Assembly (NCBI GenBank): GCA_004347685.1
Contig: SLTJ01000028.1
Coordinates: forward strand, 164,939-228,938
Length of the DNA stretch: 64,000 nucleotides
Direction of reading: 5' to 3'
Origin: Clostridia bacterium
GTDB lineage: Bacteria; Bacillota; DSM-521; Neomoorellales; SLTJ01
Part shown: piece by piece, positions 25,865 to 58,190 of the stretch
How positions within the stretch are numbered: position 1 is the stretch's first letter
How the letters are laid out: every line of letters begins with the position of its first letter
Notes under the pieces: generated by a model
Told to the model about the DNA's origin: nothing
Seen by the model: only the letters and a program-made list of their open reading frames with translations
Database searches by the model: none
Position numbers and translations under genes: made by a program

Positions 25865-26061
25865 TTTTTTTCCCTCCTAACCTGGATCACCCACCTTCAC
25901 CCCGAGGAAGGCGGTAATATAGCTTATGTAGCCGGAAACCTTTTGGCATGGTACCTGCAATTTTTTGCTGGTTTTTCTTATGATGGTTGGCAGGAAACTG
26001 GAACTGAATGTCGAAAATATGCCCAGGCGAGTTTCGGTGAAAACGAAAAGAAAACTCCTTC

Positions 26062-26145
26062 GCTAAGGGCAAACCTGTCGAAAGCCGGGGACGCAAAGCC
26101 GTGGGTCTAAGGCCGTACAGGCTATGACCGCCAGGCTGCCGGGGG
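26062..26145 (+). ncRNA. Cyclic-di-GMP-I (GEMM) riboswitch
   Basis: The core reads GGGCAAACC, a CGAAAG loop, GGGACGCAAAGCC, GGGTCTAAGGCC and GCTATGACCGCC in the right order. This matches the Vc2-type aptamer, including the conserved GCAAAGCC block and the GAAA tetraloop. A hairpin with T-run follows at 26161, so transcription control is likely. The next ORF on this strand is a short interrupted frame at 26297. Confidence 0.9.
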
Positions 26146-28320: not shown

Positions 28321-29508
28321 TTACCGCGGTTTATGAGCCATCCATATTTTTCCGTTTCCTACTGGGTTTGACGTTTGCTGCCCCCAGGGTATAAAAGTAG
28401 GCCTGGTTGTCCATTTTCTGCTCCCCTTCCTTGAAGGGGTGGCGGAAGAAAGCGGGCGATATGGGTAAATCAGGAATAAGCAAATCACGGCCACCAGGGT
28501 ATTAAAGGCCAGGGGCAGGCTGTAGCCGGCCACCGGGAGCAGGGTCAGGACTAGCGCGTCCCGCCGGCGGGTGGAAGACAGGGACAGTGCCAGGAGGGCG
28601 TACAGGAAGCCGGCCAGGGAAAGCAAATAGATTGGCAGCGGCAGGTGCAGGGATAGGCCGAGGGTCCAGTTGACCAAGATGGCCACCAGGTATGGGTTGG
28701 CCTGATAGACCCAGGCAAAAAGAAACAGGACCGTCAGAGTGACAGTTGTGGCCAGCCATCGCCTGGCCCCGGGTGGGGTGGCGGCCCTAACTGCGGCGGG
28801 CAAAAGGAGCAGGCCCCCGGCCAGCACCACCACCTGCCCGGCGGCCCAGGAGGTGCCGGCGGCCCATGGCGGGGGCCAGCCCCATAACTGGCTGCTGCTG
28901 TGGAGTATCCCGGAAAGAAAGGCCAGGGCCCAGGCCATGGCGAAGACCATCCCGATCCGCCTCGGCCAGCGGGAGCCCGGCCAGGGTAGCCCGGGGCCTG
29001 GTGGTTGCGGGTTAAATCCAGACACAAGTTGCGCCACCTTCCAACTTGAAGCGGCAGGAAGGCCGGCCTCCTGGCCGGTGCCGGCGCGCGGTTCCTCACC
29101 CACGGGCCGGATCTGAGCCCGGGAAAACAAAACCATGACCGCCAGGCCCAGAGCATTGTACGCAACCAGGAGCGGCAGGCCGAAGGGCCGCAGGCCGCCG
29201 TAAAGGGAAAGGGTAACCAGGGCCGCAATAAGCGCCCACAGGATGGGCCGGGTCAGGGCAGTGGCCCCGGCGGGCCACCGCCATCCATTTCGCTCCTCAA
29301 GGAAGAGGAGAAGCAGTACCAGCAGGCACAGGTAAAAGGCCAGCCCTTGGGCCAGCTCACCGGCGGCGGTGAGGAGGTGAAAAACACCACCGGCCAGGCC
29401 GCCCACCGGCATGTAAATGGCCAGCCGGGATAACACCTGGTAAAAAAGCAGCCCGGCCCACCCGGTCACGGCCAGGCCGACCAGCGCCACCCTAATCCCT
29501 GGCCCCAT
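28321..29508 (-). CDS. Polytopic membrane protein at the end of the respiratory operon
   Basis: About 395 residues from the ATG at 29506-29508, which overlaps the preceding gene by 17 bases. There are around ten hydrophobic helices and a polar tail. I do not recognise the family; the size and helix number recall heme-copper-related or NnrS-like proteins, but no diagnostic motif was found. Its coupling to the GATase-like gene puts it in the nitrate-type operon, perhaps in transport or cofactor handling. That is inference from position only. Confidence 0.6.
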   Translation of the reverse strand: MGPGIRVALVGLAVTGWAGLLFYQVLSRLAIYMPVGGLAGGVFHLLTAAGELAQGLAFYLCLLVLLLLFLEERNGWRWPAGATALTRPILWALIAALVTLSLYGGLRPFGLPLLVAYNALGLAVMVLFSRAQIRPVGEEPRAGTGQEAGLPAASSWKVAQLVSGFNPQPPGPGLPWPGSRWPRRIGMVFAMAWALAFLSGILHSSSQLWGWPPPWAAGTSWAAGQVVVLAGGLLLLPAAVRAATPPGARRWLATTVTLTVLFLFAWVYQANPYLVAILVNWTLGLSLHLPLPIYLLSLAGFLYALLALSLSSTRRRDALVLTLLPVAGYSLPLAFNTLVAVICLFLIYPYRPLSSATPSRKGSRKWTTRPTFIPWGQQTSNPVGNGKIWMAHKPR

Positions 29509-30277
29509 ACCGGTGCCGGCGGCTGGCCACCCTCTCACCCTCCGCACCTCCCTTAAGCGGCCGCAGCAGTTGCGCCAGGTTCTGCAGGAACCTGCCGGCC
29601 GCCGCGTCAAACTCCTGCCAGCGCACAGAATCTTCGCTCAGGGACCTGAGGCCTGACCTTTTTTGCCCGCCCCCTCCCTGGGGCAGGTCATCGGCATAAG
29701 CCTGCCTCCAGGCCTTGGCCATTTCCTGGGTTACCTCCAGGTGAAACTGCAGGCCAAAGACCCGGGCCCCCAAGGCAAAGGCCTGATTCGGGCAGGTAGG
29801 GGTGGAGGCCAGGTGTGTTGCCCCTGGGGGCAGGTCAAAGGTATCGGCGTGCCACTGGAAGACCGGGAATTCTTCCGGGAGACCGGCAAAAAGGGGAGAT
29901 CGCCTCCCGGCCGGGGTAAGCCTTAACGTGAACCAGCCAATCTCCTGGACCGGGTTCCGGTAGACCTCGGCGCCAAGGGCGCGGGCAATAAGTTGCGCTC
30001 CCAGGCAAATGCCGAGGACCGGCAGCCCCCTGGCTACCGCCTCCCGGATAGTCTGTTTCACCACGGCTAAGTACGGATACTGGTCATGGTCGTCGGCGCC
30101 CATGGGACCGCCTAAGACCACTAGGGCCTGGTAGGGGCGCAAATCCTGGGGCAGGGAGGCGCCAGGTCTGTCCATCTGCCGCACCTCAAGCTGCCACCCG
30201 GCCCTTTCCAGGGCCGGGCCCAGGGTGCCTGGCCCCTCGATGGCGATGTTTTGTATTACCAAGGCCCGCAATCTCAT
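29492..30277 (-). CDS. GMP-synthase-like class I glutamine amidotransferase
   Basis: 261 residues from the ATG overlapping the chaperone stop (ATGA). The GATase core has the nucleophile elbow LGICLGAQLIA, the oxyanion-side VVLGGPMGADD, and a His-x-Glu pair in GLQFHLEVT. It lacks a GMP synthase ATP-pyrophosphatase half. Free-standing proteins of this type hydrolyse glutamine or gamma-glutamyl compounds. Its place between a TorD-like chaperone and a membrane protein in a molybdoenzyme operon is unusual and the role is unknown. Confidence 0.82.
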   Translation of the reverse strand: MRLRALVIQNIAIEGPGTLGPALERAGWQLEVRQMDRPGASLPQDLRPYQALVVLGGPMGADDHDQYPYLAVVKQTIREAVARGLPVLGICLGAQLIARALGAEVYRNPVQEIGWFTLRLTPAGRRSPLFAGLPEEFPVFQWHADTFDLPPGATHLASTPTCPNQAFALGARVFGLQFHLEVTQEMAKAWRQAYADDLPQGGGGQKRSGLRSLSEDSVRWQEFDAAAGRFLQNLAQLLRPLKGGAEGERVASRRHRYGARD

Positions 30278-31005
30278 GCCTCCCCCAGCAGCAGTTTTTC
30301 CTCGCCCGCCACCCACTCCTGCAGCCACCCCGCCAGGGCGCGGTAGAAGGGGTGGCTGCACTTATCCGCTACCCGGGCGGTAAAGCCGGGAACCCAGCGG
30401 GCGAGGTGGCGGGCCAGGAAGTCCCGCTGGGCCCGACGGTAGCCCGGGCCATCTTCACCGGCGCAAACTGCCGCCTGGTGCTCCTTGAAGACCAGGTAGT
30501 ACATGAACTCCAGTTCCACGCTCACGTGGTCCGGCAGCTCTTTTACCGCCGGAGAGACGGCCAGCCCGAAGTGGCGGTAAAACTGGACCAGCTCCCAGAG
30601 CAGCATTGGCCGCCCGTTACGGTTCTGGTAGATACCGGCGTAGGGCGGGCATGGCGGGTACTTAGGCCCGATGTCGAAATAATAGCTGTAGGCCACCTGC
30701 AACTCGCCGGCCGGCCCGGTGTCCTGCAGCCCGGCGGCGGCGAGCCTGTAACCCGCCGCTTCCGCCTGCTGGGCGACGGCCACGAAATAACCCTGGCGAA
30801 CTAGTTCCGGAATCAGATCCCCCGGATAGCTGAAACCCACGGCCAGGGCCTTATATATGACCATGCGCGGAGGCAGGCCCCCCATCGCGGTTGTCAGCGC
30901 CGCCGCGTCGAGTTCCTCACTGGCTATTTTGGTTATCGGCTGGCAGCCTTTATCCTTGACCTCCACGCAGGTTATGACCTGATCCGCACCGCCACTGGCT
31001 AACAT
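30274..31005 (-). CDS. TorD/NarJ-family molybdoenzyme chaperone
   Basis: 243 residues from the ATG that overlaps the gamma-subunit stop (TAATG) and has AGGAGG eight bases upstream; a GTG three codons earlier sits too near the site. It is all-helical, with ALAVGFSYPGDLIPEL, HVSVELEFMYYLVFKEHQA and a late FLARHLARWVPGF. These are the marks of TorD/DmsD/NarJ chaperones that bind the alpha subunit and hold back export until the molybdenum cofactor is in. It fits the Tat signal of the alpha subunit in this operon. Confidence 0.85.
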   Translation of the reverse strand: MLASGGADQVITCVEVKDKGCQPITKIASEELDAAALTTAMGGLPPRMVIYKALAVGFSYPGDLIPELVRQGYFVAVAQQAEAAGYRLAAAGLQDTGPAGELQVAYSYYFDIGPKYPPCPPYAGIYQNRNGRPMLLWELVQFYRHFGLAVSPAVKELPDHVSVELEFMYYLVFKEHQAAVCAGEDGPGYRRAQRDFLARHLARWVPGFTARVADKCSHPFYRALAGWLQEWVAGEEKLLLGEA

Positions 31006-31796
31006 TACCGCCACCTCCTGGGAATATGGCTCCTGGCCACCGGCCTGCTGGCCACTTCGTTCCGGGAAGCCGTCACTTGCCCGCCGGCCCTAAGGTCCAG
31101 GGTAAGCCAGTTGGAGGTGGATTTGCGTCCGCCCCGTTGCTCGTCGGCCCCGTTCCATACGGCAAAGGCAATGCTGGCCTGGGGGACCTGCCAGGCCGGG
31201 TCCTGGCCCAGGGCGCGCGCCAGGACAACCGTCCAGCGCCCGTTCTGGTAGCTCCCTTGGCCCTTGGCCTCCACCAGCGGGTAGCGGGAAAGGGTGCCGT
31301 AAGCCCCGCCTACCAGGCTCTCGGCCTGGTTGGTATCGGCCCGCCAGTAGATGATGTTTACCGGCCCGGTGCCCTGGCCCATGCAGATGTACGGCCGCTG
31401 CGCCGCTTCCACCGGTACCTGCACCGCCACGGCGTCGGCAAACTGGGTGATGTCCTGGATCCGGCTGTCCGCGGTGGTATCGGCCCAGCTAACGCGCCAG
31501 TACAGCCAGTCTCCCCGGCGCAGGGCCTGCACCTCGAGGCTGGTGGTAATGGCTACCGGCCATTCGCCCTTGATATCCATCCCGCTCAGCGGCACCTGGA
31601 TGGGAGTTATCCCGCCCCATACTGCCGCGGCCGGAGCCAATGGATCTTCTCCGCCCGCAACCGCCGGCACCGGCAGGATGTCGGCCCGCGCCGCCTGGGT
31701 GGGCCCGGTATGCCCCAGCCACAGGTAGGATAGGGTGACGGCTGCGGCCAGAACTACTATGATAATGATAATTGCCCGCCTGGACAATTGTTTCAC
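31005..31796 (-). CDS. Heme-b-binding gamma subunit (ethylbenzene dehydrogenase type)
   Basis: 263 residues. One N-terminal membrane helix or signal (AIIIIIVVLAAAVTLSYLWL) is followed by an EB_dh domain (GDWLYWRVSWADTTAD, DAVAVQVPVEAAQRPYICMG). This is the gamma subunit of type II DMSO-reductase-family enzymes (SerC, ClrC, DdhC, NarC), which holds one heme b outside the membrane and takes electrons from a cytochrome. It lies directly after the beta gene (12 bases). Confidence 0.88.
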   Translation of the reverse strand: MKQLSRRAIIIIIVVLAAAVTLSYLWLGHTGPTQAARADILPVPAVAGGEDPLAPAAAVWGGITPIQVPLSGMDIKGEWPVAITTSLEVQALRRGDWLYWRVSWADTTADSRIQDITQFADAVAVQVPVEAAQRPYICMGQGTGPVNIIYWRADTNQAESLVGGAYGTLSRYPLVEAKGQGSYQNGRWTVVLARALGQDPAWQVPQASIAFAVWNGADEQRGGRKSTSNWLTLDLRAGGQVTASRNEVASRPVARSHIPRRWR

Positions 31797-31808
31797 CCCT
31801 TCCTTCGC

Positions 31809-32756
31809 CTAGACCCGCCACCGCTGGTTGCTGACCAGGGTCTGGATCAGCTCCGATGTCTCTCCCCGCCTGGCCCGGGCGATCTCCTGACGCAGGGTAT
31901 CTAAGACCTGCCGTACACTGGGCCCAAAGAGGGATTCCAGGTACGCCAGCGGGATCCGCCCCTGTCCCTGGGGCTCACCGTTATTCCCCACCCTGGGGGT
32001 CGAAATTGGCGGCACATAGTAGACGTTGGGCTCGGTGCCGTATTCCGGGTGCAGGGGCACGGCCACCTTAAACTTCTTCACCAGTTTGTAAACCGGCCCC
32101 TCAGTGTCGTCCATGAAGCCGAAGAAGCGGATGCGGCCGGCGCACTGGGCCACGCAGGCCGGAGGTACTCCCTTTTCCACCCGCGGGAAGCAGAAGATGC
32201 ATTTCTCCGCCTTATTGGTTTGTACGTTGTAGTACGGCTTCTTGTAGGGACAGGCGCGCACGCAGTAGCGGTACCCCCGGCAGCGCTCCTGGTCAATAAG
32301 GACGATGCCGTCCTCCTCGCGCTTGTAAATGGCCTGGCGCGGGCAGGCGGCGAGACACGCCGGCTTGTTGCAGTGGTTGCAGGGCCGGGGGAGGTAGAAA
32401 TACCAGGTGTTAGGGTATTCTCCTTCGCCCACGTCTTCCTGCCAGTTCGGCCCCCAGGAGGGCTGGGGCCTAGGGAAGATATGTGGCAGCTTCTCCCAGT
32501 CCCACTCCCAGGGCACGCCGTAGTCCTCCACGCCCGGGAGGTCGCCAAGCTGCACCTCGCCATTCGCGTCAAAGCCGCCGCCCATTTTCTCCCACCTCCG
32601 GGGGTAGCCGTCCCCCGGCCGGGTTTCTACGCTATTCCAGCACATGTATTCCTGGCCGGGGCCGCGCAGCCACATGTTCTTGTCGGCAATGGTGCAGGTC
32701 TGGCAGCCCAGGCACTTGTTGATGTCTATTACCATGGCCAGTTGCCTTTGCGACAC
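31809..32756 (-). CDS. narH: Iron-sulfur beta subunit of type II DMSO-reductase-family enzyme (NarH-like)
   Basis: 315 residues from the GTG with AGGAGG eight bases upstream. Four cysteine groups are visible: CLGCQTC, CNHCNKPACLAACP, CRGYRYCVRACP and CIFC with a later PPACVAQC. In NarH the third group reads CRxWRxC and holds a 3Fe-4S cluster; here Tyr replaces that Trp. The protein relays electrons from the gamma heme to the molybdenum subunit. At 315 residues it is nearer SerB, ClrB and archaeal NarH than E. coli NarH (about 510). Confidence 0.93.
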   Translation of the reverse strand: MSQRQLAMVIDINKCLGCQTCTIADKNMWLRGPGQEYMCWNSVETRPGDGYPRRWEKMGGGFDANGEVQLGDLPGVEDYGVPWEWDWEKLPHIFPRPQPSWGPNWQEDVGEGEYPNTWYFYLPRPCNHCNKPACLAACPRQAIYKREEDGIVLIDQERCRGYRYCVRACPYKKPYYNVQTNKAEKCIFCFPRVEKGVPPACVAQCAGRIRFFGFMDDTEGPVYKLVKKFKVAVPLHPEYGTEPNVYYVPPISTPRVGNNGEPQGQGRIPLAYLESLFGPSVRQVLDTLRQEIARARRGETSELIQTLVSNQRWRV

Positions 32757-32768
32757 GGGCCTCACCTC

Positions 32769-35390
32769 CTACGCTTTCCGCACGTCTACCCGGGTGTCGC
32801 GGTTGGTACCGGTAGGCCCCCAGTAGTTGAGGCGGAACTTGAGGTGGCCGTACTCCACTTCCTGAGTAGGCTTGACCTTGATGGTCACCGGCGCCTGCCA
32901 GTTGCCGCTGTCGCGGTCGAAGAGATAGCGCTCCCAGCCGTGGTACACGATAACCGTGCCGGGCCGCACCCGCGGGGCCAGCTTAGCCCGCAGCCTCGTC
33001 TCCCCGTGCTCGTTGAACAAGATGACTTCGTCGTTATCGGCAATATCTCTGGCGGCGGCATCCTGGGGGTTGAGTTCCAGGATGGGCCCACCCCGCTGCA
33101 ACTGCAGCATCCAGTCCAGATCTCGCCAGGTGGAATGGACGCTCCAGCGGCCGTGGGGGGTGAGATAGTGCAGGGGGTGCTTCTCCAGCTCCAAAGGCGG
33201 CTTGTAGACCGGCAGTTCTTCCCCTTCGGCCAGGAAAACGTCGTGGTCCAGGTAGAGCTGCTGCCGGCCGGTAAGGGTAGGCCAGTGTTCCTTGCCCTCC
33301 ACGTGCTCCTTGAAGGGCGTAAAGGCCCCGCGGTTACGGGTGAAGCCGGCTTCGCCGGAGCGGTCGCCGGCCGTGGCGTTTGGACCGCGCTTCAGCCGCA
33401 CCGGGTGCTTCTTTATTTCCTCCACCGTGTACCCCTTGGTCCAGGGGTGGTTGTCCAGGGCCCACTGGGCCACCGCCTCCGGGGTCTCCCCCATCTCGGC
33501 CCACCGTTCGTAAAGGTTGGCAAAGTCGGCCATGCCTTTTTGGCGCGCCTTGCGGGTAATCACCTGGATCAGTTCTTTCCAGATGTAAAAATCAGGCTTG
33601 GACTCCCACAGGGGGTCAATGGCCGCGTTGAACGAATGGATGTATTCGTGCAGGTCCGTGGTGCTGAGGTCAAACTTCTCAAAAAAGCTGGCTGCCGGCA
33701 GTACCAGGTCGGCATACAGGGCGGTGGTATCCAGCCGGTAGTTGAAGTCCACGATAAGTTCCAGCTTGGGCCACAGGTTCGCCAGGACCGCCTCGTGGCC
33801 CTTGGCCTGGTTGAGGTAGTTGGCGCGCCAGACGATCATCATCTTGGGGTCGCCCTCTTTGGGATAGAGCGGCATCCAGCCTTCCTCCACCCCCCGGGTG
33901 CGCCGGCCGAAGGTATGGCAGTAAGTCCACAGGGTGGTATTCTGCCATCTTGTCTTTTCTGGCCAGAACCACTGATTTAAGGAGGGGACCTTCAGGGCCT
34001 CTTGGCCGACGTAATGGTTGAACCCGCCGCCGTTCTTGCCGACATTGCCCGTGAGGATGGGCAGGAGCATCTGCGCCCGGTTGATCAGGTCGTTGTGGTA
34101 CCAGTGGTTGGTCCCGGCGCCTTCAATGATCATGGCCGGCTTGGTGGTGGCGAATTCCTCAGCCACCTGCCGGATGACGCTGGCGGCTATGCCAGTGATC
34201 CCGGCCGCGATTTCCGGGGTGCACTCACGGTTGAGCTTTTCGGCGAGCAGGGCCCAGACCGGCTGTACCTCCACCTCGCCGCCGGCGGTCTGTACCCTGA
34301 ACCTCCCTTCCAGGGCCGGGTCCGCCGGGCCCAGGGCCAGATTCTGTTTGCCCGCAGCCACTGCCTGGCCCGCCTTCTGGTCCCAGTAATAAAAAACGTC
34401 GTCCCGCCCCCCTGGCTCGAGATCGGCCTGGCGCAGAAACTTCCTGGTATCCGTGCGCACCAGAAGGGGCAGGTCTGTCTGCTCCTGGAGGTAGGCCCGG
34501 TCATAGAGCCCCCTGGCGATGATGTGCTGGGCCATGGCCAGCCCCAGGGCGGCATCCGTCCCCTCGCGGATGGGCAGATACTGGTCCGCCTTCAGGCTCG
34601 TGGGGTTGTAGTCAGGAAAGATGGTCACGATCTTGGCCCCCAGGTAGCGGGCCTCGGTGAGGAAGTGGGCGTCCGGGATGCGGGACTCCACGGCGTTGGC
34701 CCCCCAGAGGATGATGTAGCGGGAGTTGGCCCAGTCCCAGGCCTCGCAGGATTCCGTCTGGTAGCCCCAGGTCATGGGCTCGCCGGGCGGCAGGTCGGAG
34801 TACCAGTCGTAAAAGCTACCCACCACGCAACCGGTGAGGCTACCGAAGCGGTAACCGGCACCGGCGGAAAGGGGGCTCATGGCCGGGATCACCGAGAAGA
34901 GGAAGACGTGGTCGGTACCGTGCTTTTGGGCTACCTCCAGGAACTTCTCGGCGATAATGTCATAGGCTTCCTCCCAAGAAATGCGCTTCCATTTGCCTTC
35001 GCCCCGCTCACCGACGCGCTGCAGGGGATACTTCACCCGCTGCGGGCCATAGACGTAGCGCTCGTAGCTGGCGCCCTTCTGGCAGCCCCGGGGGTTGTAC
35101 TCCGGGTCAGGGAAATCGGCCGACTGCTCGGAGCGGATGGCAATGCCGTCCCGCACCTGCACGTTCCAGCCGCAAGAGCCGGTACAGTTAACCGAGTGGG
35201 TGGTGCGGACCACCTTATCCCACCGCCATTCCTTGCGGTACAGGTCTTCCCAGCCCCGGTAGGGATAAGATTTCAGCGGGTCCTCCACGGCCTGGAGCAT
35301 CTGGAGGGCCGGCAGTCTCTGGCTCACCAGCACCCCGGCCGAGGCCAGGCCGCCCATTTTTAAGAAATCACGGCGGGTAAACTTGCGCAA
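32769..35390 (-). CDS. narG: Tat-exported molybdopterin alpha subunit, nitrate-reductase-like (type II DMSO reductase family)
   Basis: 873 residues from a TTG with GGGGGAGGTG upstream; the longer frame runs back through the cytochrome c gene and is not used. The Tat motif TRRDFLKMGG begins at residue 5. The FS0 cluster pattern is H65-x3-C69-x3-C73 and C103. The molybdenum-site block YDWYSDLPPGEPMTWG has the likely Asp ligand at 199. PDAHF, GGGFNHYVGQ and the C-terminal NYWGPTGTN follow. The enzyme would act outside the membrane. Nitrate is the best guess because NarXL-like and NO-related genes are near; selenate, chlorate or another oxyanion remains possible. Confidence 0.92.
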   Translation of the reverse strand: MRKFTRRDFLKMGGLASAGVLVSQRLPALQMLQAVEDPLKSYPYRGWEDLYRKEWRWDKVVRTTHSVNCTGSCGWNVQVRDGIAIRSEQSADFPDPEYNPRGCQKGASYERYVYGPQRVKYPLQRVGERGEGKWKRISWEEAYDIIAEKFLEVAQKHGTDHVFLFSVIPAMSPLSAGAGYRFGSLTGCVVGSFYDWYSDLPPGEPMTWGYQTESCEAWDWANSRYIILWGANAVESRIPDAHFLTEARYLGAKIVTIFPDYNPTSLKADQYLPIREGTDAALGLAMAQHIIARGLYDRAYLQEQTDLPLLVRTDTRKFLRQADLEPGGRDDVFYYWDQKAGQAVAAGKQNLALGPADPALEGRFRVQTAGGEVEVQPVWALLAEKLNRECTPEIAAGITGIAASVIRQVAEEFATTKPAMIIEGAGTNHWYHNDLINRAQMLLPILTGNVGKNGGGFNHYVGQEALKVPSLNQWFWPEKTRWQNTTLWTYCHTFGRRTRGVEEGWMPLYPKEGDPKMMIVWRANYLNQAKGHEAVLANLWPKLELIVDFNYRLDTTALYADLVLPAASFFEKFDLSTTDLHEYIHSFNAAIDPLWESKPDFYIWKELIQVITRKARQKGMADFANLYERWAEMGETPEAVAQWALDNHPWTKGYTVEEIKKHPVRLKRGPNATAGDRSGEAGFTRNRGAFTPFKEHVEGKEHWPTLTGRQQLYLDHDVFLAEGEELPVYKPPLELEKHPLHYLTPHGRWSVHSTWRDLDWMLQLQRGGPILELNPQDAAARDIADNDEVILFNEHGETRLRAKLAPRVRPGTVIVYHGWERYLFDRDSGNWQAPVTIKVKPTQEVEYGHLKFRLNYWGPTGTNRDTRVDVRKA

Positions 35391-35434
35391 AGGATAACAC
35401 CTCCCCCGAGTTCGAGGTTCGTAGCTTTCGCAGG

Positions 35435-36121
35435 CTATTTCTTCCACGTGCGGATGTAAGCCACAATATCGCCTATTTCCTGGGGCGAAAGCACTTTCAC
35501 GCCGCCGTATCCCTGGCCCCAGGCGCTCATGGGAGTTCCCGGCCGCCCCCGGGCAATGGTCTCCTTGATGAACTGGTCGCTGGCGCTGGCCTGGAAAACA
35601 GCGTTGTTCAGGGCCGGGCCGACCCGCCCCTGGCCCACCAGGCCGTGACACCCAGCGCAGTTGGCCGCATAGAGCTGGCGGCCCCGCTCCGGCACGCCTT
35701 CAACCGGTTCCTCCGGCAGCTCCACCCTGGGTTCCTGCTGCTGTGAACGCAGGTAGGCGATTATCTCGTCAATAAGCCGGTCGGAAAGGACGCCGCCGCT
35801 GTCCCGGCCCAGGGGATTCATATCCGTACCCGGCCGGCCCTGCTTGATGGTAGTCCGCAGCATATCGTCGCTGGCCAGGGCAAGGAAAGCGTCCGTGCCT
35901 ATAGCCGGCGCCCGTCCGGCGGCCCGACCTTCACCGCGCTGGCCGTGGCACGAACCGCAATTGTCAATAAAAAGCCCCTCCCGCCACGGCCGGCCGGCAA
36001 TTTCCTGCTCCCCCTTCCAGGCCGGCATGGCCTCCCTGACCACCACGAAGACAAAGACCACCAGAGCCGCCACACTTATCAGGGCGAAGTATTTCATTAC
36101 CTTGGCGATATCGTCGTCCAC
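35435..36121 (-). CDS. Membrane-anchored diheme cytochrome c
   Basis: 228 residues from the GTG with GGAGG at eight bases; upstream codons overlap the cytochrome b gene. One N-terminal helix (YFALISVAALVVFVFVVV) anchors two cytochrome c domains with CGSCHGQRG and CAGCHGLVG. Both domains share GRPGT and an M-x-x-(W/L) heme-ligand region (TDMNPLG, TPMSAWG), so they arose by duplication. It most likely carries electrons from the Rieske/cytochrome b complex to the heme gamma subunit. Confidence 0.92.
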   Translation of the reverse strand: MDDDIAKVMKYFALISVAALVVFVFVVVREAMPAWKGEQEIAGRPWREGLFIDNCGSCHGQRGEGRAAGRAPAIGTDAFLALASDDMLRTTIKQGRPGTDMNPLGRDSGGVLSDRLIDEIIAYLRSQQQEPRVELPEEPVEGVPERGRQLYAANCAGCHGLVGQGRVGPALNNAVFQASASDQFIKETIARGRPGTPMSAWGQGYGGVKVLSPQEIGDIVAYIRTWKK

Positions 36122-36137
36122 TGCCACAACCTCCAAC

Positions 36138-37400
36138 CTAGTGCCCGCCGGCCTGCCAGGGCCACACCCAGTGCCAGCCGGGGCCGCGGAAATACATCCC
36201 GATGACAATAAGAATGGCAACGGCCACCAGCCCGGCAGCAAAGACGGCAATCGCCAGGCGGCGGTCCTGGAAGCGGCGGCTGGGGTTTTTGTCCAGATAG
36301 GGCAAGGCCATCAGTCCCAGAACCAGTGCCCCGGGCAGAACTATACCGAAGAGCAAGGGGCTGCCGTAGTGCAGGAGTTCCTGCAACCAGAGGAAATACC
36401 AGGCGGCCTTGGCTGGGTTCGGGGTAACTGAGGGGTTGGCTATCCCCTCCAGAGGCGCATCAAAAAAGAGCGAAATCAGCATCAGCACGGCCAGGAGGGC
36501 GGTAAAGGCCACCAGTTCCCGCATTACCAGGTGCGGCCAGACCATTTCTGTTTCCACCTCATCTTCCCGCACCTGGGGCGTGCGGCCCGGGATCAAGCCC
36601 ATGAAGCCGTACTCCTTGGCTGGCGGCGTGGTAGCCACTGCCGTCTCGACGCCTGCGGCCACCTGGTCTTCGCCTAGAGCCTCCACCGGGTCGGAGATGC
36701 CGCCGTCCTTGCGGATCCGGAAAAAATGAAAACCTATGAAAAACACCATCAATGCCGGGAGCAGGACGACATGGAACAGGTAGAACCTGGTAAGAGTTTC
36801 CTGCCCGATCCGTTTGGCGCCCAGGAGCAGGTACTGGATATCGTCCCCGATTACCGGCACATAACTGGCCAGGTTGACGCCCACGTTCACCGCCCAGTAG
36901 GCGAGCTGGTCCCAGGGCAGGAGGTAACCGGTAAAGCTGAGAAAAACGGTGATCAGGAGCAGGAACATACCGATCACCCAGTTAAACTTCCGCTCACCCT
37001 TGTAGGAGGCGGTGAAGAAGACACGGGCCATATGCAGCACCACCAGGATGACCATGGCGTGGGCCGCCCAGCGGTGCAGGTTGCGAAAGAACCAGCCAAA
37101 GGAGGCTACGTTGCGCAGATCGAGCATGTCCTCGTAGGCACGGTCTGCCGAAGGCACGTAGTAAAGCATGAGGAGGAGGCCGGTCACGGCAAGGATAATA
37201 AAGCATCCCAGAGTCAGGCCACCCAGGCCGAAGGTATAAGTGAATTTGAGGCCGTGCTTCTTCACCTTGACCGGGTGGATATGGGTAAGGAAATGGCTGG
37301 TCATGATCAGGGACTGGTCCTTGGGATTGTCCGGCCGGCCGTGGCGGAAAATGGAGCGGCCAAGGGCCGTTTGCCGGAACCAGTCAAAGAATTTGCCCAT
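36138..37400 (-). CDS. Cytochrome b, full-length (b6 plus subunit IV fused)
   Basis: 420 residues. The N-terminal four helices hold the bis-His heme pairs (NLHRWAAHAMVILVVLHMAR region, then FYLFHVVLLPALMVFFIGFHFF, each read in parts). The C-terminal part corresponds to subunit IV. At the PEWY site the sequence reads PAKAAWYFLW. With the Rieske protein it would oxidise menaquinol in a Q cycle. Start ATG with GGAGGG upstream. A loop of about 60 residues (SDPVEALGEDQV to TEMVWPH) separates the two halves. Confidence 0.94.
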   Translation of the reverse strand: MGKFFDWFRQTALGRSIFRHGRPDNPKDQSLIMTSHFLTHIHPVKVKKHGLKFTYTFGLGGLTLGCFIILAVTGLLLMLYYVPSADRAYEDMLDLRNVASFGWFFRNLHRWAAHAMVILVVLHMARVFFTASYKGERKFNWVIGMFLLLITVFLSFTGYLLPWDQLAYWAVNVGVNLASYVPVIGDDIQYLLLGAKRIGQETLTRFYLFHVVLLPALMVFFIGFHFFRIRKDGGISDPVEALGEDQVAAGVETAVATTPPAKEYGFMGLIPGRTPQVREDEVETEMVWPHLVMRELVAFTALLAVLMLISLFFDAPLEGIANPSVTPNPAKAAWYFLWLQELLHYGSPLLFGIVLPGALVLGLMALPYLDKNPSRRFQDRRLAIAVFAAGLVAVAILIVIGMYFRGPGWHWVWPWQAGGH

Positions 37401-37541
37401 ACTTTCTTATCCCTCCTCGCAAAGGACATGAGGCCCTACCTGGAGACCACTACCCAAGCGACGGCCACGCCGTGGCCCGGCGCCCGGAACAGGCCTGCGG
37501 TAGCGCTGCCTGTACTCCGTCCCCATTGGCCGCATTAACCG

Positions 37542-38048
37542 TCATACAGTCAGGAAAACGTCGCCACTGACTATCTCATCAGGGTCAACCAGCAGTCCCC
37601 CGTCCTGTTTCAGGTTCAGCCGGTACCACTCCAGGGGCCGCGGCGCCGGCCCTCCCAGCACTTGGCCGGTCATCGGATCAAAGAGGCTGCCGTGGCAGGG
37701 ACACTCCAGGCGGTCGTTTTCCGGCACCCACTTGACGGTGCAGCCCAGATGGGTACAAACCGCCGATAAGGCCCGCAGACCCCGCTCGTTTTTGACAATA
37801 AAAGCGCGCCGGCCGTTAACATATGTAACCTTCGCCCGGAAATCCTTTGCCTTCCCGGCCACAAAGGCATTGCGGCTGGGGCCGACCCGGTTGGGCACCA
37901 GGTATCGTGCCCCGGCCCCTACCAGGCCGGCAGCCAGGGCCGTAAAGGAACCCCAGCCCAGCACACTGAAAAACTGCCGCCGCGAAAGGGTATGGTCCTT
38001 TCTGGCCGCCTCGCACTGCGGGCACTGGCTTTGCCCAGTAACGGACAT
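37542..38048 (-). CDS. Rieske iron-sulfur protein
   Basis: 168 residues from the ATG at 38046-38048; the frame opens further upstream but the Tat motif SRRQFFSVLG at residues 22-31 sets the N-terminus. The cluster motifs are CTHLGC (98-103) and CPCHGS (116-121). An additional CPQC pair at residues 9-12 lies before the Tat signal, which is unusual and would stay cytoplasmic. It works with the cytochrome b encoded next. The gap 37401-37541 shows no gene. Confidence 0.93.
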   Translation of the reverse strand: MSVTGQSQCPQCEAARKDHTLSRRQFFSVLGWGSFTALAAGLVGAGARYLVPNRVGPSRNAFVAGKAKDFRAKVTYVNGRRAFIVKNERGLRALSAVCTHLGCTVKWVPENDRLECPCHGSLFDPMTGQVLGGPAPRPLEWYRLNLKQDGGLLVDPDEIVSGDVFLTV

Positions 38049-38089
38049 GAATTTTTCCCTCCTCAAAGCCGAAAACCGGCCACCGCCGA

Positions 38090-40045
38090 TCAGGAACTTC
38101 CCCAAAAGCTGAACTCCACCATCCGCATCGCCCCTGCCGGGCAGCGGCGAACGCAGAGGCCGCAGCGGATGCATTTATCTTCGTCCTTGAGCATGACCGC
38201 CCATGCCTGACCTGCCTGCGGCCGCAAGGCGTAGCCGTCGGGCCAGTCCGGAGGCACACCCAGTTTCCACGCCACTTCCTGGCGGAGCTTTTCGTCCAGG
38301 ACCACCCTATCCAGGGGCACCAGCCGCAGGCAATTATACGGGCAGACATCCACGCACCCGCCGCACATAAGGCACTTTTCCGGGTCCAGCCAGGGGTTGA
38401 GGTAGCACTGGAGGCAGCGGCGGGCCTCTCGCATGGCTTGCTCGCGGCTGTATCCCACCTCCACCTCGGCAATACCTACCCGCCGGTCCAACTGCAGGGA
38501 AGGAACCGGCTGCCGCGGCAGGCGGTGATAATCATCTTCGAGCCGGCGAGGCGGAGTGATTCTACCGGCGGCCCCCATGGCCGTGGTCCGGGCTACTCCC
38601 CTTAAATAGGCGTCAATGGAGCGCGCCGCCAGGCGGCCGTCAGCAATGGCCGCAATGGCTATGCGCGGCCCGAAGGCAGCGTCCCCGCCGGTAAAGACCC
38701 CCGGAAGGTTGGTGGCCATGGTTTCCGGGTCCACCTGGATGGTCTGGCGCGGGGTGAGGGCCGGACCGTCGGCCGGGCTAAACATAGAGGTATCCAGGGT
38801 CTGGCCGATGGCCAGGATGACGGTATCTGCAGGCCAAGTTTCCTCGCTCCCGGGGATAAACTGGGGGTTGAACCGGCCGGCAGCATCGAAGAGAGAAGCC
38901 ACCCGCCGGGTCACCAGGGCCTTCACCCTTCCCTTTTCACCCAGGATGGCGTGTGGACCCAGGGACGGGCGGATGGTTATCCCCTCCGCCGCGGCCGCCT
39001 CCACCTCCTCGGCAAAGGCCGGCATGCTTTCCCGGGATTCCAGACAGACCATTTCCACCCGCCGCGCCCCCAGGCGCAGGGCTGCCCGCGCCGCATCGGC
39101 CGCGGTAGTCAGCAAGGTCTCCCGCCACTCTCCGGCCTCGGGCTGCGGCAACCGTAGGGCGCTGCGGGCCACGTCTACGGCCACGTTGCCGCCGCCGATG
39201 ACGATTACCCTTTCTCCGACCTCCACCCGGTAGCTCAGGTTCACATTGAGAAGAAAGTCCACGCCCTTCAGGACGCCGTCCAGGTCCGCTCCCGGTACCT
39301 GCAGCTCCCGGCTGGCCGTGGCCCCCACCGCCAGGAACACGGCCCCGTAATTGGCACGCAGGTCTGAGATGGAGAAATCCCGGCCCAGGGCCTTTCCCGT
39401 TTCCAGCCTTACCCCCAGCGCCAAAATGGCCTCAATGTCCTCGTCCAGGGCCGCGCGCGGCAGGCGGTATGCAGGTATCCCCAGGCGCAGCATGCCTCCC
39501 GGCCGGGGCTGGGCCTCAAAAATTGTTACCCGGTAGCCCAAGAGGGCCAGGTCGTGGGCACAGGCCAGCCCGGCGGGCCCGGCTCCCACGACGGCCACTT
39601 TCTTTCCCGGGCCGGGCCGGAGATGTGCTGGCTGGCGGCCGGTAGCCAGGCCTTCGCCGGCACCGCCGGCGTGGCCGCCGGCCGGCAGCCTGCCTCCGGT
39701 GACCGATCCCCCGCCGTCCCTGTTCCCGGACATTGTTCCCGGTCCCGATACCAGGGGACCGCGGCACCCCATTTCAGCCGCTGCCCGCTTGAGGGCCCTG
39801 ATGGCTACCGGCGCGTCTATCTGGCCGCGGCGGCAGTGCGTTTCACAGGGGTGGGCGCAAATGCGGCCGCAAACATGAACCAGGGGATTGGGCTCCCGGG
39901 CCACCTCCAGGGCCTCGGCAAACCTCCCCTGGGCAATCAAGGACACGTAACGGCCGGCTTCGGTATGTACCGGGCAGGCCAGGGCACACCTGACGTTTTC
40001 CCACAGCCATTCGGCGTCCATGGCCCGGACACGATATGTCGCCAC
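38090..40045 (-). CDS. GltD-like FAD oxidoreductase fused to a 2[4Fe-4S] ferredoxin domain
   Basis: About 651 residues from a GTG eight bases after GGGAGGGG. The N-terminal domain IV-type cluster region has CALACPVHTEAGRY and CGRICAHPCETHCRR. An FAD fold follows (KKVAVVGAGPAGLACAHDLA) and an NAD(P) fold (RVIVIGGGNVAVDVARSA), as in glutamate synthase small subunit, NfnB and PreT. The C-terminus adds CLMCGGCVDVCP and CIRCGLCVRRCP. A Gly-rich insert of about 45 residues (near 100-145) is specific to this protein. As first gene of the respiratory operon it may feed NAD(P)H or ferredoxin electrons to quinone, or regulate the pool; this is inferred. Confidence 0.85.
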   Translation of the reverse strand: MATYRVRAMDAEWLWENVRCALACPVHTEAGRYVSLIAQGRFAEALEVAREPNPLVHVCGRICAHPCETHCRRGQIDAPVAIRALKRAAAEMGCRGPLVSGPGTMSGNRDGGGSVTGGRLPAGGHAGGAGEGLATGRQPAHLRPGPGKKVAVVGAGPAGLACAHDLALLGYRVTIFEAQPRPGGMLRLGIPAYRLPRAALDEDIEAILALGVRLETGKALGRDFSISDLRANYGAVFLAVGATASRELQVPGADLDGVLKGVDFLLNVNLSYRVEVGERVIVIGGGNVAVDVARSALRLPQPEAGEWRETLLTTAADAARAALRLGARRVEMVCLESRESMPAFAEEVEAAAAEGITIRPSLGPHAILGEKGRVKALVTRRVASLFDAAGRFNPQFIPGSEETWPADTVILAIGQTLDTSMFSPADGPALTPRQTIQVDPETMATNLPGVFTGGDAAFGPRIAIAAIADGRLAARSIDAYLRGVARTTAMGAAGRITPPRRLEDDYHRLPRQPVPSLQLDRRVGIAEVEVGYSREQAMREARRCLQCYLNPWLDPEKCLMCGGCVDVCPYNCLRLVPLDRVVLDEKLRQEVAWKLGVPPDWPDGYALRPQAGQAWAVMLKDEDKCIRCGLCVRRCPAGAMRMVEFSFWGSS

Positions 40046-40139
40046 TACCACGCCCCTCCCAACAGGTTTAAAATTGACTTCCAGGCCTGGCCAATCTGGA
40101 CTTTTGCCTTTTAAGATAACAATAAGACAAGAAATAGTC

Positions 40140-40155
40140 TGTGAGATAGATCACA
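40140..40155 (-). promoter_or_regulatory. CRP/FNR-family operator, respiratory operon, site 1
   Basis: TGTGAGATAGATCACA is a perfect TGTGA-N6-TCACA palindrome about 95 bases upstream of the operon's first start codon. Confidence 0.8.
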
Positions 40156-40162
40156 GTATCAC

Positions 40163-40178
40163 TGTGATTCAGCTCACG
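40163..40178 (-). promoter_or_regulatory. CRP/FNR-family operator, respiratory operon, site 2
   Basis: TGTGATTCAGCTCACG has one mismatch to TGTGA-N6-TCACA. Its centre is 23 bases from that of site 1, about two helix turns, which would suit cooperative binding. Confidence 0.7.
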
Positions 40179-51744: not shown

Positions 51745-53160
51745 TCAGTGCACCCCGGCCGCCTTCTGGGCAGCCCAGTTTGCGTCCTTGTCCTGGTGGC
51801 AGGAGAGGCAGGCAAAGTTCAGCGTGACAAAACCTTTGGCGCTCTTCCCGTCTTTGCTGAACATGCTGGCTGCAGGGTCGGTGTTGATCTTAAAGAGATG
51901 GGTCTTCACATCGCCCCGGTTAGGTCCGGAGTTCACTGCTGACTTGGTGGCTGCCGGCATATGGCAGTCTACGCAGGTCACGCCCATCTTGGCCATGGGC
52001 TTGTCGGCGTATGCACGAGCCACGGCGCTGTGGCAACTGCCACACTCTCCCTGCGGCTTAATGGATAACTCCGCCTTCTTATGGGGATTGTGGCAGGTCA
52101 CGCAGCTCAAGGCAGCGTGCGGGCTGGCCAGGAGCTCGTTATACTGCTCGTGGTGCTCGATAAAGCCGTTCTTGGCCGGGATGGTATCTTTGGAGCCGCG
52201 GATATGGCACTGGCCGCAGAGGGCGGAGGAAGTATCCACCTTGATCTTGGCTTTATCCGCCGTCCGGGCATGTTCGGCCCCAGGACCGTGGCAGGCTTCG
52301 CACCCTATCCCCGGTTCAGCCCACGTGCCGATGATGCCGGGGAGGCCGTCCTGGTGCCCGTCCTTGGTATACCCGGTGGTATGGCAGTTGCCACAGTCGT
52401 AGGGTTTATCCTTGCCGGCTTCGTAGTCAGACCATTTCCCGGTCGCCAGGTTATATTGGTTTTTGCCGGGCCCGTCGGCATTGGCCGTGATGATCTTGCC
52501 CGTCTTATCCATATACCTGGCCTTCCACTTATACCCGCCAATGACGTAGGAGATGTCGTCCCAGGTATAGCCTTTGGGTAAAGGAAGCGGGTTATAGTGG
52601 GCTTCAGCGGCCGGCCGCAGCTTCCACGGGTGCCCGGAAACGATATAATCGTTGTAAATGTCGGCGTGACATTTGCCGCAGGTTTCGGAGCCCGCATATC
52701 CAGGGCGGGCTGCGCTAGCAGCCGGCGCGGCCGGCGATGCCCGGCCTGGAGGGGTCCCGGCGGCAGCGGCCATGATCCCGGCTGCCGCCTCGGCGGCTAC
52801 CATGGTGCGACCTTTAGAGACCCTGGTGCTGACCGGCAGTGCTGTCTCTTTCCCATCAACCACGGCCCTGGCCTGGCCGGCAGGGAAAATGATGGTCTGG
52901 CTGCCGAGCTTTACGGTGGCTACCTTATTTCGGTGATCCCATGCAATGGTACCCCCGTAGGCCCGGACCAGATCCCGGAGCCCCACCATGGCCTGACCGT
53001 TGACTGTGGTACCAGCCAATTGTACCGGCTGCCCGGCCACCATGACGGCGACGGTAGTGTCAGTGGCGGCGGTAGCCGGTCCGGAAAAGCCTGAGAGGAC
53101 GGCCGCCGCCAGGAGACCGGCACTTAGAAAAACCAGCAACATGACTAGCAAGCGTCTCAC
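51745..53160 (-). CDS. Secreted octaheme cytochrome c with N-terminal stalk domain
   Basis: 471 residues from a GTG nine bases after GGAGG; the frame opens 18 codons earlier. It has a signal helix (LLVMLLVFLSAGLLAAAVLSG). A copper-amine-oxidase-like stalk domain follows (VMVAGQPVQLAGTTVNG, GLRDLVRAYGGTIAWDH), then an Ala-Pro linker. Eight CxxCH motifs come next (CGKCH, CGNCH, CEACH, CGQCH, CVTCH, CGSCH, CVDCH, CLSCH). The spacing recalls cytochrome c554-like families. The stalk could hold the heme domain in the wall. It lies downstream of a NarXL-like pair, on the same strand. Confidence 0.9.
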   Translation of the reverse strand: MRRLLVMLLVFLSAGLLAAAVLSGFSGPATAATDTTVAVMVAGQPVQLAGTTVNGQAMVGLRDLVRAYGGTIAWDHRNKVATVKLGSQTIIFPAGQARAVVDGKETALPVSTRVSKGRTMVAAEAAAGIMAAAAGTPPGRASPAAPAASAARPGYAGSETCGKCHADIYNDYIVSGHPWKLRPAAEAHYNPLPLPKGYTWDDISYVIGGYKWKARYMDKTGKIITANADGPGKNQYNLATGKWSDYEAGKDKPYDCGNCHTTGYTKDGHQDGLPGIIGTWAEPGIGCEACHGPGAEHARTADKAKIKVDTSSALCGQCHIRGSKDTIPAKNGFIEHHEQYNELLASPHAALSCVTCHNPHKKAELSIKPQGECGSCHSAVARAYADKPMAKMGVTCVDCHMPAATKSAVNSGPNRGDVKTHLFKINTDPAASMFSKDGKSAKGFVTLNFACLSCHQDKDANWAAQKAAGVH

Positions 53161-53214
53161 CTTATCTCTCCTCCCATGTTCAAGTAACTGTCTTTTCTCC
53201 CACCCGGAAAACAC

Positions 53215-53603: not shown

Positions 53604-54254
53604 TTATAGGGATTTCGGCGGGAGGCGGCGCAAGACGTAGGCCGCCGCCTCCACCCTATTCCTGGCGTTGATCTTTTCCAGGATGGAACTCACGTAGTTC
53701 TTCACCGTCCTGGGGCTGAGGAAAAGCTCTTCTGCTATCTGCTTGTTGGTTTTCCCCTGGGCAATCAAGGCCAGGATCCTTTCCTCTTGTACCGTGAGGC
53801 CATCAACCCTGAGGGTCTCAGCTTCAGCCTGCAACTGCAAGCGCTCCAGGACATGCCCGGTGACCTTGGAATCCAGGACAGATTCCCCGCGACTTACCTT
53901 GAGGATCGCCGCCACCAGTTCTTCTGCCTCAACATCCTTGAGGAAATAACCGCTGGCTCCGGCTCTGATGGAGCTCAGCAGGGCCTCAGGATCAGGGTAG
54001 GACGTAAGCATGATTACCTTTGTCTGCGGGCTTACCCGGCGAATTTGCTCACACGCTTCTACCCCGCTGCTGCCCGGCAGCCTGATATCTACCAGGGCCA
54101 CGTCAGGATGGGTAACTTTGGCCAGCTCTACAGCTTCCGGGGCCGTCCTGGCTTCTCCTACGGCCTCAAAGCCAGCCCGGTCGCGCAACATGTAAATCAG
54201 GCCCAGCCGCACCATCTGGTGATCATCAACCACCATGACCTTTACCTTCTCCAT
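53604..54254 (-). CDS. NarL/FixJ-type response regulator
   Basis: 216 residues. Receiver domain with the acidic pair at 10-11, phosphorylated Asp56 and Lys106. A LuxR-type helix-turn-helix follows at about 152-210 (LTVQEERILALIAQGKTNKQ, AEELFLSPRTVKNYVSSIL). It lies 38 bases after the sensor kinase gene. The likely targets include the octaheme cytochrome downstream and other respiratory genes. Confidence 0.94.
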   Translation of the reverse strand: MEKVKVMVVDDHQMVRLGLIYMLRDRAGFEAVGEARTAPEAVELAKVTHPDVALVDIRLPGSSGVEACEQIRRVSPQTKVIMLTSYPDPEALLSSIRAGASGYFLKDVEAEELVAAILKVSRGESVLDSKVTGHVLERLQLQAEAETLRVDGLTVQEERILALIAQGKTNKQIAEELFLSPRTVKNYVSSILEKINARNRVEAAAYVLRRLPPKSL

Positions 54255-54292
54255 TTTTCCACGCCTGCCTCGAAGATAAGTGTTCTATTTAT

Positions 54293-57052: not shown

Positions 57053-57148
57053 CACTATGGTCAAAGCACATTCGTACTAAGTAGAAGTGGAGCAGAAGCG
57101 AAGCAGAACCGGGGCAGCCAGCGAAATCTCCAGCGAAAGGTCAGAGAT
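57053..57148. repeat. 96-bp direct repeat, copy 2
   Basis: Partner of 48935-49030. It overlaps the last codons of the truncated NO reductase gene and so marks its breakpoint region. Confidence 0.9.
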
Positions 57149-58190
57149 GTCGCCGCAAGGCAAGATGCCTGAACCGGGCACGTGGAAGCCCGAAGTCCAT
57201 GTGGAAGAGGCGGGCATCAGCGTGACCTTCTGCACCTATTCTAGCCTCGGAACCGAGACCGTAAAAAGTCCCGGGATTGCTAGTCTGGTGAGCCATGTAC
57301 CCGCCCATCAAGGTTTGCAGCAGGAACAGGGCTACCACCACCAAAAAGTACTTGGCAGTCTTCGCTTGGCTGGCGGAAATGGGCAACCTGGCCAGCACCT
57401 GAGCTTGGTCGAACTGGGAATCCGCCTCCTTATTGAAACCGCCCCAATGGAACAACCAGGCTATTAATCCCAAGAAGGCCATGAACATGATGATGGATAT
57501 GACCGTCCAGGTTGTCGCTTGGGCAGAAAGCTGGTTGCCCACGGTTACATCAGGTGGCCAGTTGTTGGTATAAGTATGATCTGCATTTGGTCTCAAGGTA
57601 CCGGCCGCCCAAGCCGTCCAGAAAAAGAAATCTGCCAAGGCCGCCCTTTGACCAGGATCAGTGATGGTGCCCGCCGAGACTACCTTTTCGGGATCGCCTC
57701 TACTGAAAAGATCGTCATAGTATGACCTGACCTGCTCCAAGGCGAAAACCTGGGCACCGGAAAGGGTCAGGGTGTCACTAGAACGGTCATAGCGGTTTTG
57801 CTTTATGTCGGAGATGGTAAGCCCGTCAACAGCAGCTTTCTCCGCCGGGCCCAGATTTGCGTAGCTTTGCTGGTATTTCTGCTTGGCGTAATATTCGCGC
57901 ATGTAAATCCCTATCTGGTGCAAAGTTGTCGCCGTGAAATCAGGTCCCCTATAAGTACCATGACCCCAAACGCTGCCAAGGTCCATCAAACCGTACTGCT
58001 GGAAAGTTGACTGGCCCTTCATGATTTCGGATTTAGTGGTAATGATATCACCGGCAGGAGACACCACCTTAGCAGGGTAAGGCGGCGCATCTTCCATGGT
58101 TGCAATACCACTGACTGCAGCCACTATGGCAGCACCAAAGAGGGACAATACAAACAAAATTCTCAGCCGTTTTGATACACTTCTGTTCAC
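57141..58190 (-). pseudogene. norZ: Truncated quinol-dependent nitric oxide reductase
   Basis: The GTG start opens a frame that follows qNOR for about 325 residues: N-terminal helix, QYGLMDLGSVWGHGTYRGP, EQVRSYYDDLFSRGDP, FFFWTAWAAGTLRPN, TYTNNWPPD and LLQTLMGGYMAHQTSNPGTF. After FYGLGS it turns to unrelated residues and ends at 57141. The catalytic heme-copper part (about 430 residues) is absent, so the product cannot reduce NO. The end lies in the 96-bp repeat. A CRP/FNR-type site and a leader ORF upstream are still intact, so decay looks recent. Confidence 0.88.

Follow-up and report, generated by a model that had tools for sequence, protein, structure and literature searches.

How could a respiratory molybdoenzyme that faces outwards contribute to energy conservation? 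The question is raised by an operon within a 64,000-nucleotide stretch of DNA from a Clostridia bacterium (hereafter the window), for which the original prediction had proposed that a Q-cycle complex feeds an outward-facing molybdoenzyme. Based on the encoded proteins and their residues, this operon probably specifies a Tat-signalled, outward-facing nitrate reductase that would be supplied with menaquinol electrons through a Rieske/cytochrome b complex. The label ‘acetogen-like’ for the host is based here solely on a CO dehydrogenase gene found in this stretch.

Organization and regulatory setting of the operon

Ten adjacent genes occupy the minus strand from 40051 to 28321, confirming the operon at its predicted position, and the tight junctions originally reported (a TTG start for alpha, TAATG and ATGA) were all read in the sequence. 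The first gene (38090..40051) encodes a GltD/NfnB-like FAD and [4Fe-4S] flavoprotein of 653 amino acids counted from GTG 40051 (GTG 40045 is an alternative start), with Pyr_redox_2, Fer4_20 and Fer4 domains, and is followed after 41 bases by a Rieske [2Fe-2S] protein (37542..38048) of 168 amino acids with an ATG start, for which the PF00355 match of 49 bits was scored on a longer frame. Beyond the widest gap of the operon (141 bases) lie a 420-amino acid cytochrome b with a fused subunit-IV domain (36138..37400; PF00033, PF13631 and PF00032) and, 16 bases on, a diheme cytochrome c with an N-terminal hydrophobic stretch (35435..36121; PF13442 and PF00034 in two stretches, two CXXCH motifs), which likely starts at GTG 36121, longer frames being possible. 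After 44 further bases, the 873-amino acid alpha subunit of a type II molybdoenzyme (32769..35390), which contains a Molybdopterin domain, starts with TTG at 35390 behind GGGGGAGG.

Gaps of 12 bases each separate alpha from the Fe-S beta subunit (31809..32756; TIGR03478, 505.8 bits, cut-off 480.7; Fer4_11) and beta from an EB_dh-type heme b gamma subunit with an N-terminal hydrophobic stretch (31005..31796; PF09459, 83 bits; TIGR03477, 168.8 bits, just below the cut-off of 169.85). Gamma is joined by TAATG (31005) to a TorD/NarJ-type chaperone (30274..31005; PF02613, Nitrate_red_del, 85.7 bits; TIGR03482, 135.6 bits, below the cut-off of 152.3), and the chaperone by ATGA (30277) to a class-I GATase (29492..30277; PF00117, 80.9 bits). 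The latter shares a 17-base overlap (29508/29492) with a polytopic membrane protein (28321..29508) that has no Pfam or NCBIfam match. The gene identities first proposed agree with these domain calls, the last gene being family-less, and a domain search of the ten operon genes found no NarI-type gene, as had been claimed.

Two Crp/Fnr-type palindromes (40140..40178, unstranded) lie 89 and 112 bases ahead of the operon and 84 and 61 bases ahead of a divergent HD gene. The window holds eight such palindromes versus 0.71 expected, a number reached in 0/100 shuffles. A private regulon was nevertheless rejected, because among three other host stretches one is also rich in palindromes (L157, five in 16 kb; L158, none in 15 kb; L133, none in 14 kb), making a global regulator as likely.

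Class and predicted substrate of the molybdoenzyme

Both alpha (TIGR03479, 994.1 bits, cut-off 984.75) and beta clear the cut-offs curated for the type II DMSO-reductase family. The twin-arginine motif TRRDFLK, read directly in alpha, fits the Tat consensus [ST]RRxFLK (PMC8301774, in excerpt) and suggests that alpha would be exported via a Tat signal; the Pfam TAT_signal score is below its cut-off (19.7 versus 22.7 bits).

A 48-row alignment places the FS0 His/Cys3 ligands of alpha at H65, C69, C73 and C103, the molybdenum ligand at D199, further positions at N68, W75 and F193/Y194, and the gate at a nitrate-type Glu464 within HYVGQE. The gate residue is Glu in 41/48 rows (HYVGQE), Trp in the PcrA row and Tyr in three rows from a group that we take to be Moorella, while three SerA/EbdA-like rows do not align at this position. 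Roles for these alpha positions are described in PMC8301774, where changing the PcrA gate from Trp to Glu raised the perchlorate Km from 6.0 to 301.

These residues bear on whether the outward enzyme instead reduces a different oxyanion, for example chlorate, selenate or perchlorate. Perchlorate reductase is the best solved match of alpha (807 bits, versus 447 for NarG), PcrAB has the same FS0 ligands, Lys105 and molybdenum Asp, type II enzymes are promiscuous, and haloarchaeal Nar also reduces chlorate (PMC8301774, in excerpt, Table 1 for the latter). However, the window enzyme has Glu464 rather than Trp at the gate, the ground on which perchlorate reductase itself was rejected, as well as Trp75 in place of His and a separate long branch. 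Alpha also lies apart from the SerA/EbdA-like clade, no chlorite dismutase was found among the operon genes and the part of the window genes scanned, and the host carries nitrogen-oxide genes. We consider another oxyanion substrate improbable.

The nitrogen-oxide genes comprise an NrfA (436 bits to 8bcx; NCBIfam 183.5, below the cut-off of 595) and a cNorB (181 bits to 3o0r, scoring weakly in NCBIfam). A broken qNor remnant lies in the window, 17 kb from the operon, and a qNor gene stands divergent from the operon in genome G129. The alpha residues alone do not separate nitrate reduction from nitrite oxidation. The enzyme might run in reverse, with nitrite as an external donor whose electrons are forced inward onto quinone and NAD(P): NarG-type and nitrite-oxidizing enzymes share fold and ligands, and 7b04 is among the alpha matches. 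Host NrfA and NorB point to reduction, and electron flow from nitrite to menaquinone is uphill at standard potentials, which also counts against this highly improbable direction.

Alpha trees were built from 24 rows hand-picked from the best 120 homologues listed, leaving out L127 and a second host enzyme (C43), neither of which yielded a usable frame, and including a truncated row (BAC_G291); they are of a ‘quick’ type with SH-aLRT support only and long-branch warnings. Alpha sits in its own five-row clade (SH-aLRT 100), outside the separate canonical clade of eight NarG rows (SH-aLRT 100) and outside the clade formed by the unnamed, SerA/EbdA-like type II rows L147, L149 and L150, which stand in for the SerA/ClrA/DdhA/EbdA group; the clustering with a non-respiratory clade that would have counted against the original prediction thus did not occur. 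Haloarchaeal alpha also falls outside the NarG clade, and the window clade is not its sister with support.

The Moorella-group outgroup does not settle the branching order of the NarG, window and other clades. The enzymes of this group (37–38% identical) were rejected as alpha orthologues because the gate is Tyr in 3/3 rows and Cys replaces the FS0 His in both rows covering that site, and because of their context, which in L131 comprises a 228-amino acid beta and a gene for a polytopic membrane protein. A plasmid match (H20), an NrfD-linked enzyme, was set aside.

Canonical NarGHI resembles the window enzyme in its molybdenum Asp, FS0 His and gate Glu. It differs in that the window alpha carries a predicted export signal, Lys105 instead of the Arg of the eight NarG rows, and no PF14710, and is encoded in an operon without NarI. 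The NarG N-terminal family PF14710 was found in 0/1 host genomes, with positive controls in Escherichia coli and Bacillus subtilis, and this absence together with the separate clade rules out canonical NarGHI.

Conservation of gene order and distribution

The order flavoprotein–Rieske–cytochrome b–cytochrome c–alpha–beta–gamma–chaperone recurs in all four loci (one Bacillota, three Acidobacteriota) that combine an alpha at least 50% identical with enough upstream DNA. The flavoprotein had been regarded as a non-standard part; its place as first gene in these 4/4 loci overturns that view and rules out a stray gene, though it is absent from a more distant bacterial locus (L019, alpha 37%) and from haloarchaeal loci. 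Rieske and cytochrome b genes lie upstream of alpha in 6/6 bacterial loci reaching that far (L129, L139, L140, L143, L144 and L019) and in 3/3 haloarchaeal loci, where the core order matches the operon, so that homologous operons keep these genes in the synteny check that had been proposed. The operon content and haloarchaeal core order make it a well supported inference that a Q-cycle complex would feed an outward molybdoenzyme; the status that the proposal gave to the flavoprotein did not hold.

The other supposedly non-standard genes fared differently. Comparison with ten other loci gave no match to the GATase, and this gene is probably outside the core module. The last membrane gene (AlphaFold model, pLDDT 39.5) has a counterpart at the same place in a second Bacillota locus (L129:5392-6459, 32% identical), and P0122 is a further relative (67%). 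The cytochrome c also varies, with six CXXCH motifs in L143 versus two in the window.

Occurrence of the module is patchy. The TIGR03479 cut-off was passed in one of 41 genomes of the host and its relatives, the host itself, and an alpha of >50% identity was found in 2/398 genomes of the phylum, host included. Searches gave 0/141 for Geobacterales, 1/3 for the class of G129 (G129 itself), 0/5 for betaproteobacterial genomes and 4/399 for the order searched next, these four being taken as references; the profile scan of genome contigs represents the matches listed and is no census. A literature search joining Thermincola, nitrate reductase and Rieske found no paper.

Among known systems, the haloarchaeal pNar cluster likewise has Rieske and cytochrome b genes ahead of a Tat-signalled alpha, followed by an EB_dh-type gamma and a chaperone, and contains no NarI gene; the same core order is described for Haloferax mediterranei (PMC2483277, in excerpt). 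In contrast to pNar, the window adds a diheme cytochrome c between cytochrome b and alpha and a flavoprotein in front, and has His429 where three haloarchaeal rows have Asp; the cytochromes b are only 26–28% identical. As far as the excerpt of PMC4683180 describes it, the Methanoperedens nar cluster likewise has a Tat-signalled NarG, NarH, NarJ, an EB_dh-like Orf7 and a proposed Rieske/cytochrome b donor, but its Rieske/cytochrome b genes are located in a separate cluster, and NapH-like and HCO II-like genes accompany the nar genes.

The Rieske/cytochrome b complex, the flavoprotein and a proposed electron route

Because the redox loop of NarGHI is not available to an outward enzyme, the Rieske/cytochrome b step would be the one that conserves energy. 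The genes, their order and conservation, the residues and the trees are observations; what follows on export, the quinone, the path of the electrons, the substrate, the coupling with its proposed proton pumping, and complex formation is inference. Menaquinol would be oxidized on the outward side of cytochrome b, and the high-potential electron would pass through Rieske, diheme cytochrome c, gamma heme b, the beta Fe-S clusters and FS0 to molybdenum, where nitrate would be reduced to nitrite outside the membrane. The low-potential electron would move inward via two b hemes, and the flavoprotein, if cytoplasmic, may pass electrons between the NAD(P)H pool and cytochrome b at its inner end, in either direction. 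Antimycin A inhibits haloarchaeal nitrate reduction, as cited in PMC4683180.

The flavoprotein is predicted to be a cytoplasmic NAD(P)(H) module, its best PDB matches being Nfn-type NAD(P) enzymes (9bov/9bp5, 335 bits; 9n5u NfnA, 302 bits). This same homology would suit a donor role, in which enzyme and Q cycle are unchanged but NAD(P)H reduces menaquinone on the inside, giving a chain that starts from NAD(P)H and ends at nitrate. In the window and G129 flavoproteins (the two rows recovered), CLES replaces the NADPH-site motif YRRT of 9bov, which might mean that NADH is the substrate. However, PMC12954380 (in excerpt) argues that this direction is wasteful for a cell that possesses a pumping NADH dehydrogenase, and we regard the donor role as possible but doubtful.

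Alternatively, the front half may be an electron-bifurcating menaquinol:NAD(P)+ oxidoreductase, in which nitrate reduction outside draws one electron from each quinol, forcing the second one uphill onto NAD(P)+ inside; such a scheme has been put forward for the anammox Rieske/cytochrome b complexes (Kuste4569-4574 and Kustd1480-1485). These also encode together a Rieske protein, a b6-like cytochrome b, a c-type cytochrome and an NfnABC-related flavoprotein. The window Rieske protein (twin-arginine anchor LSRRQFF, cluster boxes CTHLGC/CPCHGSLF) keeps Ser and has Phe in place of Tyr, as in Kustd1480. Its best PDB matches, 9rk4 and 9rk3 (73.6 and 70.7 bits), appear to be anammox Rieske proteins, but are in a near tie with b6f (2e74, 67.2 bits). 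The cytochrome b matches cytochrome b6 (7r0w, 168.7 bits), but it is fused, and Gly58 (Gly in 6/6 rows) lies opposite the b6 Cys that is presumably the heme c(N) attachment site; because of this replacement, the window complex probably lacks the heme c(N) that the anammox models have. His40 is invariant in 6/6 rows, with no mapping of the window cytochrome b onto Kuste4571 His43, the residue proposed for the extra interface heme b; these motif-filtered row sets lacked haloarchaeal Rieske and cytochrome b rows and Acidobacteriota flavoprotein rows. The window also differs from the anammox complexes in including a nitrate-reductase-type enzyme and a diheme rather than hexa/octaheme cytochrome, and its flavoprotein family is very common (7732/8000 scored at E <= 1e-60). 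Bifurcation seems rather unlikely, as does, at the same tentative level, the view that the anammox proposal is found in at least two bacterial phyla with a terminal reductase attached.

The preferred reading, in which a Q-cycle complex serves an outward nitrate reductase as known from haloarchaea, explains how an outward enzyme might conserve energy. In Bacillota and Acidobacteriota this core is extended by a cytochrome c and by a flavoprotein of NAD(P) type, which suggests that it is a respiratory module general to bacteria. Anammox bacteria raise the question whether NAD(P)+ reduction can be powered by a Rieske/cytochrome b complex, and for this question the operon is a compact set of genes whose acceptor, nitrate, is simple.

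Composition and conservation of the operon

The original prediction of ten same-strand genes with tight junctions was upheld: the genes run on the minus strand from 40051 to 28321, separated by short gaps or overlaps, the largest intergenic gap being 141 bases. Family searches across the operon likewise bore out the parts that had been named. An Fe-S flavoprotein, a Rieske protein, a fused cytochrome b and a diheme cytochrome c lie 5' of the molybdoenzyme alpha subunit, which scored above its family cut-off (TIGR03479, 994.1 bits versus 984.75), as did beta (TIGR03478, 505.8 versus 480.7). Gamma (TIGR03477, 168.8 bits) and the chaperone (TIGR03482, 135.6 bits) fell below their cut-offs of 169.85 and 152.3, respectively, and the 3' end consists of a GATase-like gene followed by a membrane protein without a family match.

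We compared gene order by tblastn of all ten operon proteins against ten loci. The full order flavoprotein–Rieske–cytochrome b–cytochrome c–alpha–beta–gamma–chaperone was found in one Bacillota locus (L129 of genome G129, with cytochrome b in two pieces) and in three Acidobacteriota loci (L139 of G404, L140 of the Terriglobia MAG G405, and L144 of G530). A further locus, L143 of G482, matches from the Rieske gene onward, where its contig starts, and has a six-heme cytochrome in the cytochrome c slot. The second copy in G404 (L016) starts at alpha; the two alpha genes of this genome lie on separate contigs (L123/L139 and L128/L016). Haloarchaeal loci (L018, L145 and L122) share the order Rieske–cytochrome b–alpha–beta–gamma–chaperone with the window operon, and tblastn gave no matches in them to the flavoprotein or cytochrome c. 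L019 is a more distant locus, with alpha at 37%: Rieske, cytochrome b, alpha and beta are present, tblastn gave no match to the flavoprotein, and the genes upstream are regulators on the opposite strand. Among the matches listed, the flavoprotein has a 52% relative (P0127), whose contig has the same length (43,887) as that of P0004. The GATase was absent by tblastn from all ten loci. For the membrane gene that ends the operon, L129 has a relative (32%) at the same place; P0122, a 67% relative, and P0001 lie on contigs of equal length (8709).

The module is rare among the sampled genomes. Of 398 genomes from the phylum, two, one of them the host, have an alpha at more than 50% identity; in the sample from the phylum of G404, 3 of 199 genomes, G404 counted, have an alpha match with E <= 1e-180. 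Published work already deals with the bc complex of Bacillus, the archaeal operons and the anammox complexes; we found no description of the bacterial eight-gene module in the open-licence literature consulted, which does not prove its absence.

Relatives and active-site residues of alpha

Among solved enzymes, perchlorate reductase was the best match to alpha (807 bits), ahead of NarG (447) and ethylbenzene dehydrogenase (400). In a 48-row alignment, with functional roles assigned from PMC8301774, the FS0 ligands are His65, Cys69, Cys73 and Cys103, the Mo ligand is Asp199 and the gate is Glu464; further positions are Asn68, Trp75, Lys105, Phe193/Tyr194 and His429. The Glu of HYVGQE occurs in 41 of the 48 rows, Tyr takes the gate position in three Moorella-group rows, and three SerA/EbdA-like rows gave no alignment there. 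PcrA of perchlorate reductase, in contrast to the window alpha, has Trp as its gate, and according to a table in PMC8301774 replacing this Trp by Glu raises its Km for perchlorate from 6.0 to 301.

In our trees, the window alpha and its homologues P0001–P0004 formed one clade (SH-aLRT 100) and eight canonical NarG rows another (SH-aLRT 100). Also outside the NarG clade were PcrA, a large bacterial group and haloarchaeal NarG, which is described as nearer to PcrA than to bacterial NarG (PMC8301774); the trees, with the Moorella group as outgroup, fix neither the branching order among these non-NarG groups nor the root. A distinct Bacillota group (L131, L134 and L136) has alpha relatives at 34–38%, a short beta and a polytopic membrane gene.

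Respiratory setting in the host and the window

The host encodes an NrfA (PF02335, 412 bits; 436 bits to 8bcx) that scored below its NCBIfam cut-off. Its gene lies at L158:7984-9534 (+), and by eye its N-terminal stretch looks similar to the Cu_amine_oxidN1 domain that another cytochrome of the host carries. NorB (181 bits to 3o0r; weak score in NCBIfam) adjoins a small one-heme cytochrome. Within the window, a broken qNor gene (57141-58190, minus strand) retains only the cytochrome c-like N-terminal part: the first 318 residues (57237-58190) are 76% identical to the qNor of G129, after which come unrelated sequence and a DUF72 gene. The G129 qNor gene adjoins the operon of that genome in divergent orientation. 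The stretch that separates the operon from the qNor remnant contains, at 53604-55753 on the minus strand, genes for a HisKA_3 sensor kinase and a NarL-like response regulator (163 bits, below the NarL cut-off of 250).

Two multiheme c-type cytochromes (51745-53214, minus strand; 59938-61344, plus strand), one with a Cu_amine_oxidN1 and the other with a LysM domain, are possibly bound to the cell wall. The window also contains an anaerobic CO dehydrogenase catalytic subunit gene (61895-63913, minus strand; TIGR01702, 755 bits) and a c-di-GMP-I riboswitch (26058-26143, plus strand; 77.7 bits).

The palindrome TGTGA-N6-TCACA, with one mismatch allowed, occurs eight times in the window, versus 0.71 expected (40140, 40163, 40294, 42330, 51422, 58357, 58498 and 59857), and we take these sites to resemble Crp- or HcpR-type sites. 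Such Crp/Fnr-type palindromes precede the operon, the qNor remnant and genes for a cupin and a multiheme cytochrome; several stand upstream of respiratory genes. Without amounting to proof of substrate, NrfA, NorB, the qNor remnant, the NarL-like regulator and kinase, and these palindromes, taken together, favour nitrogen oxides as the substrate of the enzyme.
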